Source of the DNA: Rhodocyclaceae bacterium
GTDB taxonomy: Bacteria; Pseudomonadota; Gammaproteobacteria; Burkholderiales; Rhodocyclaceae
NCBI GenBank assembly: GCA_006218025.1
Contig: VBWA01000007.1
Location: 1-64,000, forward strand
DNA length: 64,000 nucleotides
Direction: 5' to 3'
Both the position numbers and the translations under genes were made by a program. Position 1 is the stretch's first letter, and each line of letters opens with the position of its first letter. Shown here in pieces: positions 642 through 60,148 of this stretch. The notes under the pieces were generated by a model. The model was not told the origin of the DNA and did no database searches. It saw only the letters and a list, made by a program, of their open reading frames with translations.

Positions 642-3332
642 ATGTCAAAGCAACTGATCATCGCCGAGAAGCCCTCCGTCGCCCAGGATATCGCCAAGGC
701 GCTGGGCGGTTTCACGCGCACTGGCGACTACTTCGAGAGCGACGACTATGTGTTGTCCTCGGCCATCGGCCATCTGCTGGAACTGGCCGTGCCGGAGGAG
801 TACGACGTCAAGCGCGGCAAATGGAGCTTCACCCACTTGCCGATGATTCCGCCGCATTTCGCGCTGAATCCCATTGAAAGAACCCAGGAACGCCTGCGCC
901 TGCTGACGCGCCTGATCAAGCGCAAGGATGTCACCGGCCTGGTCAATGCCTGCGACGCCGGACGCGAAGGCGAGCTGATCTTTCGCTATGTCGCGCAGCA
1001 CGCCCTAGGCGCCAAGCAGAAGCCGATCCGCCGCCTTTGGCTGCAATCGATGACCGCTACGGCGATCCGCGATGGCTTCGCCCATTTGCGTACCGACAAC
1101 GAAATGCTGCCGCTGGCCGATGCCGCGCGCTGCCGTTCCGAAGCCGACTGGCTGATCGGCATCAACGGCACGCGCGCCATGACCGCCTTCAACTCGAAGG
1201 AAGGCGGCTTCTACAAGACGCCGGTGGGCCGCGTGCAAACGCCGACGCTCGCTATCATGGTCGAACGCGAAAGCCGCATTCGCGCCTTCGTCTCGCGCGA
1301 CTACTGGGAAGTCGAGGGCGAATTCCAGTGCGTCGCCGGCACCTACCGCGGCCGCTGGTTCGACGAAAAGTTCAGGAAGGCCGAGGACGAACATGCCCGC
1401 GCCGAACGCCTGTGGGACAAGGGTCGCGCCGAAGCCCTGCGCAAGAAATGCCTCGGCCAGCACGGCACGGTGGAAGAGGAAAGCAAACCCAAGACCGAAG
1501 CCTGCCCGATGCTCTACGACCTCACCTCGCTGCAGCGCGAGGCCAACGGCCGCTTCGGATTTTCGGCCAAGAACACCTTGGGGCTGGCCCAGGCGCTGTA
1601 CGAAAAGCACAAGGCGCTGACCTACCCGCGGACCGACGCCCGCCACCTGCCCGAGGACTACATCGGCACCGTCAAGGAAACCCTCGCCAACATGGCGGGC
1701 TCGCCCTACGCCACCTTTGCCGGCGCCATCATCAAGAATGGCTGGGTGCATCCGAACAAGCGCATTTTCAACAATGCCAAAATCTCGGACCACTTCGCCA
1801 TCATCCCCACCGGCGCCGCGCCGAAGAACCTCTCCGAACCGGAACAGAAGATCTACGACCTGGTCACCAAGCGCTTCCTCGCCATCTTCTATCCGTCCGC
1901 CGAATACAACATCACGACGCGCATCACCCGCATCGAACAGGAAGCCTTCAAGACCGAAGGCAAGGTGCTGGTGACGCCGGGCTGGCTCGCCGTGTATGGC
2001 AAGGAATCGCAGGAGACGCGCGAAGAAGCCGGCGAGAACCTGAACCTGCCGCCACTGGAAAAGAACGAGCGCATCTGGGCCAAGGATGTCGAGGTCAAGG
2101 CCAAGGCCACGCAGCCGCCGCCGCGCTTCACGGAAGCCACGCTGCTGACCGCCATGGAAGGTGCCGGCAAGCTGATCGAGGACGAGGAACTGCGCGAAGC
2201 CATGTCCGAGCGCGGCCTCGGCACGCCGGCGACACGCGCCGCGACGATCGAGGGCCTGCTGGCCGAGGAATACCTGCACCGCAACGGCCGCGAGCTGCAG
2301 CCGACGGCCAAGGCCTTCTCGCTGCTGTTCGCGCTGGAGAACCTCGGCGTCGATGAAATCCGTTCGCCCGAGCTGACCGGCGAATGGGAATACAAGCTCA
2401 AGGAAATGGAACACGGCCGCCTCGGCCGCGACGAGTTCATGAACCACATCATGGACAGGACGCGCGAGATGGTCGAGCGCATCAAGACCGGCGAACTGCC
2501 CGAAGCCGCCTTCTCGACGCTGAAGACACCCTGCCCGCGCTGTGGCGGCGTGATCCAGGAGAATTACAAGAAGTTCCAGTGCAAATCCTGCGACTACAGC
2601 CTGTGGAAAATCGTCGCCAGCCGGCAATGGGAGCCGGAGGAAATGGACGAACTGCTCACCAATCGCGTGATCGGTCCGCTGCAGGGCTTCCGCAGCAAAA
2701 TGGGGCGCCCCTTCGCGGCGATGATCAAGCTCAAGGACGACCACATGCCGGAATTCGATTTCGGCCAGTCGGACGCCGACGCCGACGCCGAGGAAGTCGA
2801 TTTCTCGGCCCAGGAATCCCTGGGCGTTTGCCCCAAATGCGGCGGCCGCGTTTTCGAACACGGAATGGCCTATGTCTGCGAAAAGGCCGTGGGCGCCGGG
2901 AAGACCTGCGATTTCCGCTCCGGCAAGGTGATCCTGCAACAGGAAGTCGCGCGCGGCGACATGCAGAAGCTGCTCGAAACCGGCAAGACCAACCTGCTCA
3001 AGGGCTTCATCTCCAACAAGACGCGGCGCAAGTTTTCCGCCTACCTGGTGCGCGATCCGGCCACCGGCAAGGTTGGGTTCGAGTTCGAACCGAGGGCACC
3101 GAAAGTCGGGGCCAAACCGGCGACCAAGACGGCCGAGGCAAAACCCGCAAGCGCAAAAGTTCCCGAAGGGACGCACCGCGCTGGCGCTGGCGATACGGCA
3201 AAGGAAGCCGTGGTCAAGAAGCCGGCAGTGAAAAAAGCGCCCGCGAAGAAGGCCGTGGCCAAAAAGCCCGCCGCAAAGAAACCGGCGACCAAGGCCGCGG
3301 CTAAAAAACCGGTAGTCAAGAAGGCCGAATGA
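642..3332 (+). CDS. topB: DNA topoisomerase III (type IA)
   Basis: Type IA topoisomerase of about 896 residues that cuts and passes single DNA strands, resolving recombination and replication intermediates. The Toprim start is IIAEKPSVAQ, the acidic motif is CDAGREGEL, and the active-site tyrosine lies in LTYPRTDA near residue 330. Two Cys clusters follow, CPRCGGV...CKSC near 631-650 and CPKCGG...C near 730-757, which are zinc-ribbon type and typical of TopB-like proteins with Topo I-like tails. The last 70 or so residues are a Lys/Ala/Pro-rich basic tail, probably DNA binding. ATG 642 is chosen over an in-frame GTG at 612 because it starts at the conserved MSKQLIIAEK. A decayed copy of the dispersed 23-nt repeat lies in the tail. 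Confidence 0.95.
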   Translation: MSKQLIIAEKPSVAQDIAKALGGFTRTGDYFESDDYVLSSAIGHLLELAVPEEYDVKRGKWSFTHLPMIPPHFALNPIERTQERLRLLTRLIKRKDVTGLVNACDAGREGELIFRYVAQHALGAKQKPIRRLWLQSMTATAIRDGFAHLRTDNEMLPLADAARCRSEADWLIGINGTRAMTAFNSKEGGFYKTPVGRVQTPTLAIMVERESRIRAFVSRDYWEVEGEFQCVAGTYRGRWFDEKFRKAEDEHARAERLWDKGRAEALRKKCLGQHGTVEEESKPKTEACPMLYDLTSLQREANGRFGFSAKNTLGLAQALYEKHKALTYPRTDARHLPEDYIGTVKETLANMAGSPYATFAGAIIKNGWVHPNKRIFNNAKISDHFAIIPTGAAPKNLSEPEQKIYDLVTKRFLAIFYPSAEYNITTRITRIEQEAFKTEGKVLVTPGWLAVYGKESQETREEAGENLNLPPLEKNERIWAKDVEVKAKATQPPPRFTEATLLTAMEGAGKLIEDEELREAMSERGLGTPATRAATIEGLLAEEYLHRNGRELQPTAKAFSLLFALENLGVDEIRSPELTGEWEYKLKEMEHGRLGRDEFMNHIMDRTREMVERIKTGELPEAAFSTLKTPCPRCGGVIQENYKKFQCKSCDYSLWKIVASRQWEPEEMDELLTNRVIGPLQGFRSKMGRPFAAMIKLKDDHMPEFDFGQSDADADAEEVDFSAQESLGVCPKCGGRVFEHGMAYVCEKAVGAGKTCDFRSGKVILQQEVARGDMQKLLETGKTNLLKGFISNKTRRKFSAYLVRDPATGKVGFEFEPRAPKVGAKPATKTAEAKPASAKVPEGTHRAGAGDTAKEAVVKKPAVKKAPAKKAVAKKPAAKKPATKAAAKKPVVKKAE
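3179..3201 (-). repeat. decayed copy of the dispersed 23-nt repeat, in topB tail
   Basis: About 18 of 23 positions match the window consensus in reverse orientation; the mismatches are mainly in the first four bases. The topB frame reads Ala-Gly-Ala-Gly-Asp-Thr-Ala, the same peptide as clearer copies elsewhere. It is in the low-complexity C-terminal tail. Confidence 0.45.
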
Positions 3333-3919
3333 CGCACGCGGCGCCTGTTACCCGCGCCGTCCTCGACTTCTGGTTCCTGCCGCCGGACCACCCCGCGCAT
3401 GGGCAAGCGCGCCCCGAATGGTTCCGCAAGGACGACAGCTTCGATGCCGCCATCCGCGAGCGCTTCGGTGCGAATGTCGAGGCCGCATTGCGCAGCAGCC
3501 ACGACGATGGATCCGACGAGGAACTGCTGGCGCGCATCCTGCTCCTCGACCAATTCACCCGCAATATCTTCCGCGGCACGCCGCGCGCCTTTGCCGGCGA
3601 CGCACAGGCCCACCGGTTGGCCGAAACGCTGGTCGCCGCGGGCCGCGACAAGAACCTCTCACCCTGCCAGCGCTGGTTCGTCTACCTGCCCTTCGAGCAC
3701 AGGGAGTCGCTGCTCGACCAGGAACGCTCGGTCGCACTCTTCGCCGGCCTGCGCCGCGAAATGCAGAACGAAACTTTCGACGGCGCCTACGACTACGCGC
3801 TGCGGCATCGCGAGGTGATCGTCCGCTTCGGCCGCTTTCCCCATCGCAATGCCATCCTCGGCCGCGCCTCGACGCCCGAGGAAATCGAGTTCCTCAAGCA
3901 GCCCGGCTCGTCTTTCTGA
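3329..3919 (+). CDS. DUF924 family protein
   Basis: The product of 196 residues opens with VLDFWF and carries ILLLDQFTRNIFRGT and PFEHRES blocks, all hallmarks of the DUF924 family. These are soluble all-helical, TPR-like proteins of unknown function that are common in proteobacteria. The start ATG overlaps the topB stop (ATGA), so the two genes are translationally coupled. A long perfect hairpin follows 28 nt after the stop. Confidence 0.85.
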   Translation: MTHAAPVTRAVLDFWFLPPDHPAHGQARPEWFRKDDSFDAAIRERFGANVEAALRSSHDDGSDEELLARILLLDQFTRNIFRGTPRAFAGDAQAHRLAETLVAAGRDKNLSPCQRWFVYLPFEHRESLLDQERSVALFAGLRREMQNETFDGAYDYALRHREVIVRFGRFPHRNAILGRASTPEEIEFLKQPGSSF

Positions 3920-3947
3920 CGTCCAGCCGGATCAGACAACCCGAGCC

Positions 3948-59482: not shown

Positions 59483-59617
59483 GGCGACGCCGCGACAAAC
59501 ACGCAGGCGGCATCGAGGCTCGCATTCAACATCGCTGATCACGAGATCGAAGACTGCAATTGGTGCTGCGCGCAGGCTCGGTAAGATTCTGGCGTTGGCA
59601 TGCGGAAGAGGGAAATC

Positions 59618-60148
59618 ATGGGGATAGGAAGCATCGTGACAGTTGCCTGCCCGGCGCGAACGCGGAGGGCGTGGATCGCCACAAGCCTGCTGTGGGTCCT
59701 CGCCGGCCCGCCCGCCCTGGCGCAGGGCACTGCCCCGAACGCCCTCATCGAAACCCGCGACCTCGCTGCCGATGCCCGCCTCGCGGCAGCGAAGGGCGTG
59801 CCGCTGGTGGTGCTCTACAGTCGCGATGACTGCAGCTGGTGCGAGAAGCTCAAGCGCGAACACCTGGGTCCCCTGTCGCGCGATCCCGCCGCGCCGGCCC
59901 TGGTACGCGAACTGCACATGGACCGCGCCACGGCACTGCTGGACTTCGCCGGACGCCGTACCACCAGCGCCGACTTTTCGCGGCAGATGCAGGCGCGCTT
60001 CGCACCCACCGTGATGTTCCACGGCCCCGACGGCGCGGCCCTGGCCGATCCGATCGTCGGCTTTCGTCTGGCGGACTTCTACGCCGCCTACCTCGAGCGC
60101 GCGATCCAGGACAGCCAGGCCCGACTCCAGCAACGGAAACAACCATGA
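59618..60148 (+). CDS. exported thioredoxin-like protein
   Basis: Protein of 176 residues with an N-terminal signal ([19 protein letters not shown]) and a thioredoxin-fold motif [12 protein letters not shown], the CxxC redox site. It probably acts as a periplasmic thiol oxidoreductase. ATG 59618 has GAGGG five bases upstream; an ATG 18 bases earlier is less likely. It overlaps ppc by 4 nt (ATGA). A copy of the dispersed repeat encodes Arg-Arg-Thr-Thr-Ser-Ala-Asp in a loop after the CxxC helix. Confidence 0.8.
59953..59975 (+). repeat. dispersed 23-nt repeat in thioredoxin-like gene
   Basis: 21 of 23 positions match. The forward strand is translated, in a frame different from the other copies (Arg-Arg-Thr-Thr-Ser-Ala-Asp). 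Confidence 0.72.

Follow-up and report, generated by a model that had tools for sequence, protein, structure and literature searches.

The first 64,000 nucleotides of contig VBWA01000007.1 from a Rhodocyclaceae bacterium (assembly GCA_006218025.1), hereafter the window, carry a short repeat on both strands, within and between genes, which raises the question of whether such a word marks DNA for uptake, binds a protein inside the cell, moves by itself or is a by-product of coding. A preliminary description, made from the window alone, had likened it to uptake or site-specific protein-binding sequences, and that likeness now draws support from its enrichment, its recurrence at orthologous places, its turnover, its dialects and its lack of strand polarity in the sampled stretches. 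Some tests aside, the population-genomic features that we measured are those of a DNA uptake sequence (DUS). We consider it probable that the motif is one, serving as a 'self' mark for a surface DNA receptor in natural transformation.

The source genome (G000) comprises 4,441,755 bases (4.44 Mb), of which we sampled 463 kb, made up of the window, contig C7 (299 kb) and contig C1 (100 kb); a further 400 kb was sampled from the single-contig relative G002. Judged by the identity of a window protein, the closest named relatives are Sulfuritalea and other Rhodocyclaceae. Over the whole of G000, the full pattern CGCCGT-N5-CAGCGCCGACT occurs in 428 exact copies (206 and 222 on the two strands) spread over many contigs, and its reversed control in none; the core CAGCGCCGACT alone was found 635 times, against 9 for its reversal, and 10 occurrences of this exact 11-nt core lie in the window. 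When 11-mers occurring 25 times or more were ranked, the core and words overlapping it came first in both samples, about 30-fold above a Markov model. A profile fitted iteratively and applied at a score cut-off of 16 called 94 sites in the G000 sample and 64 in the G002 sample. Sequence simulated with a Markov-4 model gave 0 and 2, respectively, and the reversed profile gave 1 and 0. The scores were bimodal, with real sites well apart from chance scores, and extrapolation from the 463 kb gives about 900 sites for the genome. For 23-mers matching at 20–23 positions, of which the window has nine, dinucleotide shuffles put the expectation at 0.01, in line with the initial impression that the word is too frequent for chance, and the possibility that it is limited to this region did not materialize. 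The repeat is genuine and genome-wide, and its enrichment, far above chance at both word and profile level, gives it the copy number that characterizes DNA uptake sequences.

The motif extends over about 26 bp, roughly RTCGCCGTnYCGCCAGCGCCGACTYTY, and holds about 34 bits. In order, it consists of RT, the left block CGCCGT, two near-free positions, CGC, the core and a T-rich pyrimidine tail, and it is not palindromic. It had been introduced as a 23-nt repeat with an invariant core; the length has to be extended, with two near-free positions within the left arm, and the core, strongly conserved as it is, varies at position 2 (A in 83%, G in 15%). The bases after the core are indeed pyrimidine-rich, but of the TGA said to follow them only a weak G is conserved. 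Nine 23-mers with 20–23 matches do exist where they had been reported, the perfect three starting at 8780, 15454 and 39071. Among three copies regarded as decayed, those at 3179 and 54099 fall below the cut-off, whereas the one at 10761 proved to be a good site.

We then have to ask how far the motif extends among relatives. The full pattern is present in 31/31 genomes of the source genus. A broader pattern, which covers dialects A and B described below and misses dialect C, has at least one match in 82 of 249 Rhodocyclaceae genomes, the reversed control giving 4 matches in all 249. At least 30 copies were counted in 32 of these genomes, belonging to eight genera (g1, g8, g10, g19, g23, g78, g86 and g104), and at most 13 copies in any genome outside these 32. 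The genome with 13 copies is G182 of genus g106, a genus in which another dialect or a remnant might exist. G048 and G225, from genus g19, are low for the broader pattern, which would not detect dialect C. An order-level survey drew 399 genomes, 385 of them from other families, and 18 of the 385 hold 28 stray matches, with a maximum of 7 each (control, 3). The full pattern is absent from 64 loci totalling 1.25 Mb (L051–L114, mostly Comamonadaceae by title), in which a single core was found.

Several further occurrences were recorded in this survey. Exact copies appear in the otherwise nearly motif-free genomes G151 (four within 41 kb, C1:1461265-1502267), G125 and G351 (on several contigs in the latter two); they may have come in with DNA from motif-bearing donors or be contaminants of the assemblies. 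An exact copy is present in at least 120 virus-labelled stretches (loci L306–L425), and among the matches listed these stretches hold, beyond the first copy, 1.2 exact copies per 100 kb versus 8.2 in the G000 sample. G016 and G025 over-represent another word, TCTGCGCCTC, together with words overlapping it (15 copies against an expected 1.3, and 13 against 0.9, respectively). Downstream of the motif in L003 lies an inverted-repeat-like phrase, gtcattcccgcgaaggcgggaatccag, of a kind common between bacterial genes.

The recognized letters differ by lineage, forming lineage-specific dialects. Dialect A, CGCCGTnYCGCCAGCGCCGACTYTY, is found in g1, g78, g86, g104 and part of g19 (Sulfuritalea and others), and g8 mixes it with CAGCACCGACT. 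Dialect B, CGCCGTnYYGnnGnGACTGACTTTT, belongs to g10, the Candidatus Desulfobacillus genus, which includes G039; the four dialect B loci group together as a single clade in a tree built from one gene (21 proteins). Dialect C, with TGCCGT in place of CGCCGT, was read from individually listed sites in G148 (100 kb sampled), a member of g19, so that this genus contains both A and C. In G052 of g23 the motif is sparser and its first base less constrained (100 kb sampled), and G016 and G221 showed only remnants, in samples of 287 kb and 60 kb, respectively. The samples of G252, G287 and G169 were small (49–60 kb, 11–12 sites each).

The profile called twelve sites in the window, nine on the plus and three on the minus strand, two of which (26741 and 55553) had been missing from the preliminary description. 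They are listed below with their profile scores, gene positions being those predicted by home-made gene callers.

8780..8805, plus strand: motif copy, perfect 23-mer, score 39.7, between two convergent predicted genes
10758..10783, minus strand: motif copy with exact core and altered left block, score 29.3, within predicted gene 9405-10826 (minus)
15454..15479, plus strand: motif copy, perfect 23-mer, score 43.9, in predicted gene 14394-15974 (plus), where it encodes IAVPPAPTLV
17871..17896, plus strand: motif copy, score 39.2, near the start of predicted gene 16762-17940 (minus)
25457..25482, plus strand: motif copy, score 39.5, in predicted gene 25164-27374 (minus)
26741..26766, plus strand: weaker motif copy, newly listed, score 23.1
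31511..31536, minus strand: motif copy, score 33.7
39071..39096, plus strand: motif copy, perfect 23-mer, score 41.3, in predicted gene 38664-39206 (minus)
42772..42797, plus strand: motif copy, score 35.6, in predicted gene 42599-44566 (minus)
46927..46952, plus strand: motif copy, score 42.9, in predicted gene 46760-49210 (minus)
55553..55578, minus strand: motif copy with G at core position 2, newly listed, score 32.1
59953..59978, plus strand: motif copy, score 37.5

Individual sites are both shared and lost between relatives. The site at 17871, which by eye looks to fall within a signal peptide, is alignable in 8 near relatives and has changed mostly at free positions, with one core change in L037 and L041. 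The site at 31511 is common to G002, again with differences at free positions, and the orthologue of the 55553 site in G002 has A at core position 2. The site at 15454 was found in L041 and is not intact in L035, that at 25457 is recognizable in L038, L042 and L045 and gapped away in L037, L046, L048 and L049, and the position of the weaker 26741 copy is not a site in L037, L038 or L045. Across motif-bearing genomes, 195 alignments were condensed into 23 orthologous groups, limited to sites with an alignable partner in sampled sequence, and in 18 of the 23 the site recurs at the same place in one partner or more. Identities were weighted by group because one locus would otherwise dominate the substitution rates. 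In the 14 ungapped groups, mean identity was 0.88 at constrained positions and 0.83 in the flanks, falling to 0.66 at the two free positions. None of the sites was retained in five alignments to G016.

The main alternative to an uptake signal is that the motif is the binding site of an intracellular protein acting in chromosome organization, segregation or repair, with the copies kept by selection. Such a role would suit a long, information-rich motif that lies on many contigs and recurs at orthologous places, as well as the spacing of the sites, which in each of the five stretches is more regular than chance would give (P=0.016, 0.007, 0.42, 0.065 and 0.22; P<0.05 in two). That most carriers searched lack a short ComEA-type protein, as detailed below, also leaves room for a role outside uptake. 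Nevertheless, the strands are evenly used in the samples of both G000 (46 plus, 48 minus) and G002 (31 and 33), and the counts by stretch (window 9 and 3, C7 30 and 30, C1 7 and 15, G002 20 and 23, and 11 and 10) revealed no orientation bias along the sampled stretches of G000 (463 kb) and G002 (400 kb), in neither of which the origin was located. A replication-polarized word was rejected on the same ground, as the G002 sequence has sites on both strands. Together with the lack of a palindrome, the sheer number of copies and the use of five frames inside genes, this argues against sites for a chromosome-maintenance protein. So do the near-absence of the motif from relatives such as G016 and G221 and the letters that shift between lineages, neither of which would be expected of an essential chromosome system. 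We therefore regard a binding site of this sort as unlikely.

Considerably less likely still is a very short mobile element, or one resembling repetitive extragenic palindromic (REP) sequences, that copies itself around the genome. Sites missing by a gap at some orthologous loci would be expected of such an element, and the stray copies in other genera could pass for its spread. However, we found no conservation past about 27 bp and no bigger unit around the copies, so that a larger repeated element was rejected; changes at orthologous sites are often in-place substitutions at the same internal positions, and about two thirds of the copies lie inside predicted genes. In detail, 64 of the 94 sites in the G000 sample, which is 89% coding, are inside predicted genes, 1 is at an edge and 29 are between genes; the corresponding numbers for the 64 sites of G002 are 42, 4 and 18, the intergenic share being uncertain because gene calls cover only 71% of that sample.

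A codon-preserving control addressed the coding of these sites. Synonymous shuffling within genes (30 rounds) reduced the exact coding cores from 46 to a mean of 0.8 (maximum 5) in G000 and from 31 to 1.2 in G002. Of the coding sites over the cut-off, 14.8 of 64 in G000 and 12.4 of 42 in G002 remained on average, so codon use does not explain the counts. The sites that survive shuffling suggest that the motif has left its mark on the encoded protein sequences as well. It is very unlikely that the repeat merely reflects codon use, a protein motif or some regulatory signal, for instance a terminator. Half of the intragenic sites (53/106) do share one frame, reading VGAG-x-TA, and some sites withstand shuffling, but five of the six frames and both strands are used, nearly a third of the G000 sites lie between genes, and opposed pairs within 500 bp number only four among 158 sites; on frame usage and the shuffles together, a codon or protein artefact was rejected.

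Returning to uptake as the preferred explanation, competence, biased uptake, a receptor and molecular drive are what we infer, in the following scheme. Free double-stranded DNA would be bound at the bipartite motif by a receptor, possibly one of the minor type IV pilins, with the left block CGCCGT, the core and the T-rich tail as the bound parts, and retraction would draw the bound DNA in. ComEC would pass one strand into the cytoplasm, where DprA and RecA would recombine it. Through the preferential entry of motif-bearing fragments, chance matches would re-enter the population as copies and build up through molecular drive.

Genes for parts of such a machinery are present: a ComEC match was found in 49 of 49 genomes, DprA was over the cut-off in 21 of 23, and G000 has 17 pilin-type matches. 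A search of PDB with one of these pilins returned mostly type IV pilins and no ComP. As read from gene content, this machinery permits transformation and does not prove it. In G002, dprA directly adjoins smg and topB, and the window itself starts with an smg-topB pair (1-3332), with an smg-like frame from base 10. Since this places the expected neighbour beyond the contig end, the G000 dprA probably lies just off it, which likely explains why only a sub-threshold DprA match was obtained for this genome.

Several results, including that sub-threshold match, count against an uptake role. ComEC does not separate motif-bearing from motif-poor genomes, the ComP_DUS-family pilin occurs in 55 of 61 genomes irrespective of the motif, and DprA went unmatched in G141, a single-contig genome with 211 motif copies; none of ComEC, the ComP-type pilin and DprA discriminates genomes that carry the motif from those that do not. 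An HHH_3 match over the cut-off in a frame shorter than 400 residues was absent from 16 of 17 motif-bearing genomes (the exception being G215) and present in the motif-poor G016, G047 and G131. Sub-threshold matches in such frames were seen in G017 and G275, G048 and G225 had none over the cut-off, and the other over-cut-off matches fall in frames of about 780–1000 residues, which we take to be Tex-like proteins. Of 70 genomes, only 10 gave a match above the cut-off of the ComEA model TIGR00426; five of these carry the motif, all five in g104. Since most carriers searched lack the short ComEA-type protein, some other protein would have to serve the periplasmic step in them. Copy number within the source genus ranges widely, from 3 to 428, the lowest being G016, whose 32 cores versus 17 reversed are near background. 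Constrained positions beat the flanks in only 9 of the 14 groups (0.88 versus 0.83), and orthologous absences include gaps as well as substitutions, so the alignments do not establish point mutation as the sole origin of the sites. Finally, taking atypical composition as a proxy for newly acquired DNA, the most atypical quarter of bins in G002 has 3 sites per 100 kb versus 19–23 elsewhere, but the quarters in G000 have 19, 25, 19 and 17 (Spearman -0.09, P 0.42).

One region of G002, C1:1900001-2100000 (L146–L155), has 21 motif sites where the other sampled region has 43, about half as many, and the sample-trained gene model explains only 60% of its bases; it possibly consists of genomic islands.

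If the motif does direct uptake, the lineage concerned is environmental rather than mucosal, which bears on why uptake specificity evolves and on whether niches rich in host DNA are required. The dialects and the remnant-only relatives would offer natural material for finding the receptor, and stray copies may trace gene transfer out of the motif-bearing clade.

Among known dispersed words, KOPS (FtsK-orienting polar sequences) and Chi are 8-mers with strand polarity. Like the Rhodocyclaceae motif they are over-represented, non-palindromic and genome-wide, but they are polarized, whereas its strands are mixed along the sampled contigs. Four known DUS and uptake signal sequence (USS) words, counted in the samples of G000 (463 kb), G002 (400 kb), G037 and G039 (200 kb each), occurred 0 to 3 times each, in keeping with the earlier remark that no Neisseria or Pasteurellaceae word matches. 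The neisserial GCCGTCTGAA had 0 copies in G000, G002 and G037 and 1 in G039, and the Pasteurellaceae words AAGTGCGGT and ACAAGCGGT had 1 copy each in G000 and 0 to 3 in the four samples. Among the open-licence papers listed, none concerned an uptake-type motif in Rhodocyclaceae, Sulfuritalea, Betaproteobacteria or related genera, and a search with the letters GCGCCGACT gave, among the matches listed, unrelated titles only.

Neisseriaceae belong to the same GTDB order as Rhodocyclaceae. According to the parts of the source cited, their DUS, recognized by the receptor ComP, resembles our motif in its very many dispersed copies, its branch-specific dialects and the existence of family genomes without an abundant repeat, and differs in being a short word with a CTG core rather than bipartite and about 26 bp long (PMC3630211). 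The Rhodocyclaceae counterpart of ComP is only a candidate pilin family. Pasteurellaceae belong to a different class of Proteobacteria, and the USS density of Haemophilus is several-fold higher than the roughly 20 sites per 100 kb found here. Their USS, as far as the cited sections go, shares with our motif an extended form with a conserved core and a T-rich flank, relatively even spacing and dialects, two in the case of USS (PMC7811141, PMC12616744). In H. influenzae, 65% of USS are reported to lie in reading frames, about two thirds as here, with no orientation bias (PMC1939737), and DUS and USS dialects are stated to follow phylogeny (PMC12616744). Use of such motifs is described, in the sections cited, only for Pasteurellaceae and Neisseriaceae (PMC7811141, PMC12616744, 2025), so the Rhodocyclaceae motif, which by its letters is not a member of either sequence family, would be a third DUS/USS-like system. 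The fuller proposal, in which self-DNA recognition evolved separately a third time, with bipartite dialects, mostly without canonical ComEA and with some lineages surviving its loss, we hold to be evenly balanced; in its dispersion, dialects and placement within genes, the motif stands beside DUS and USS.

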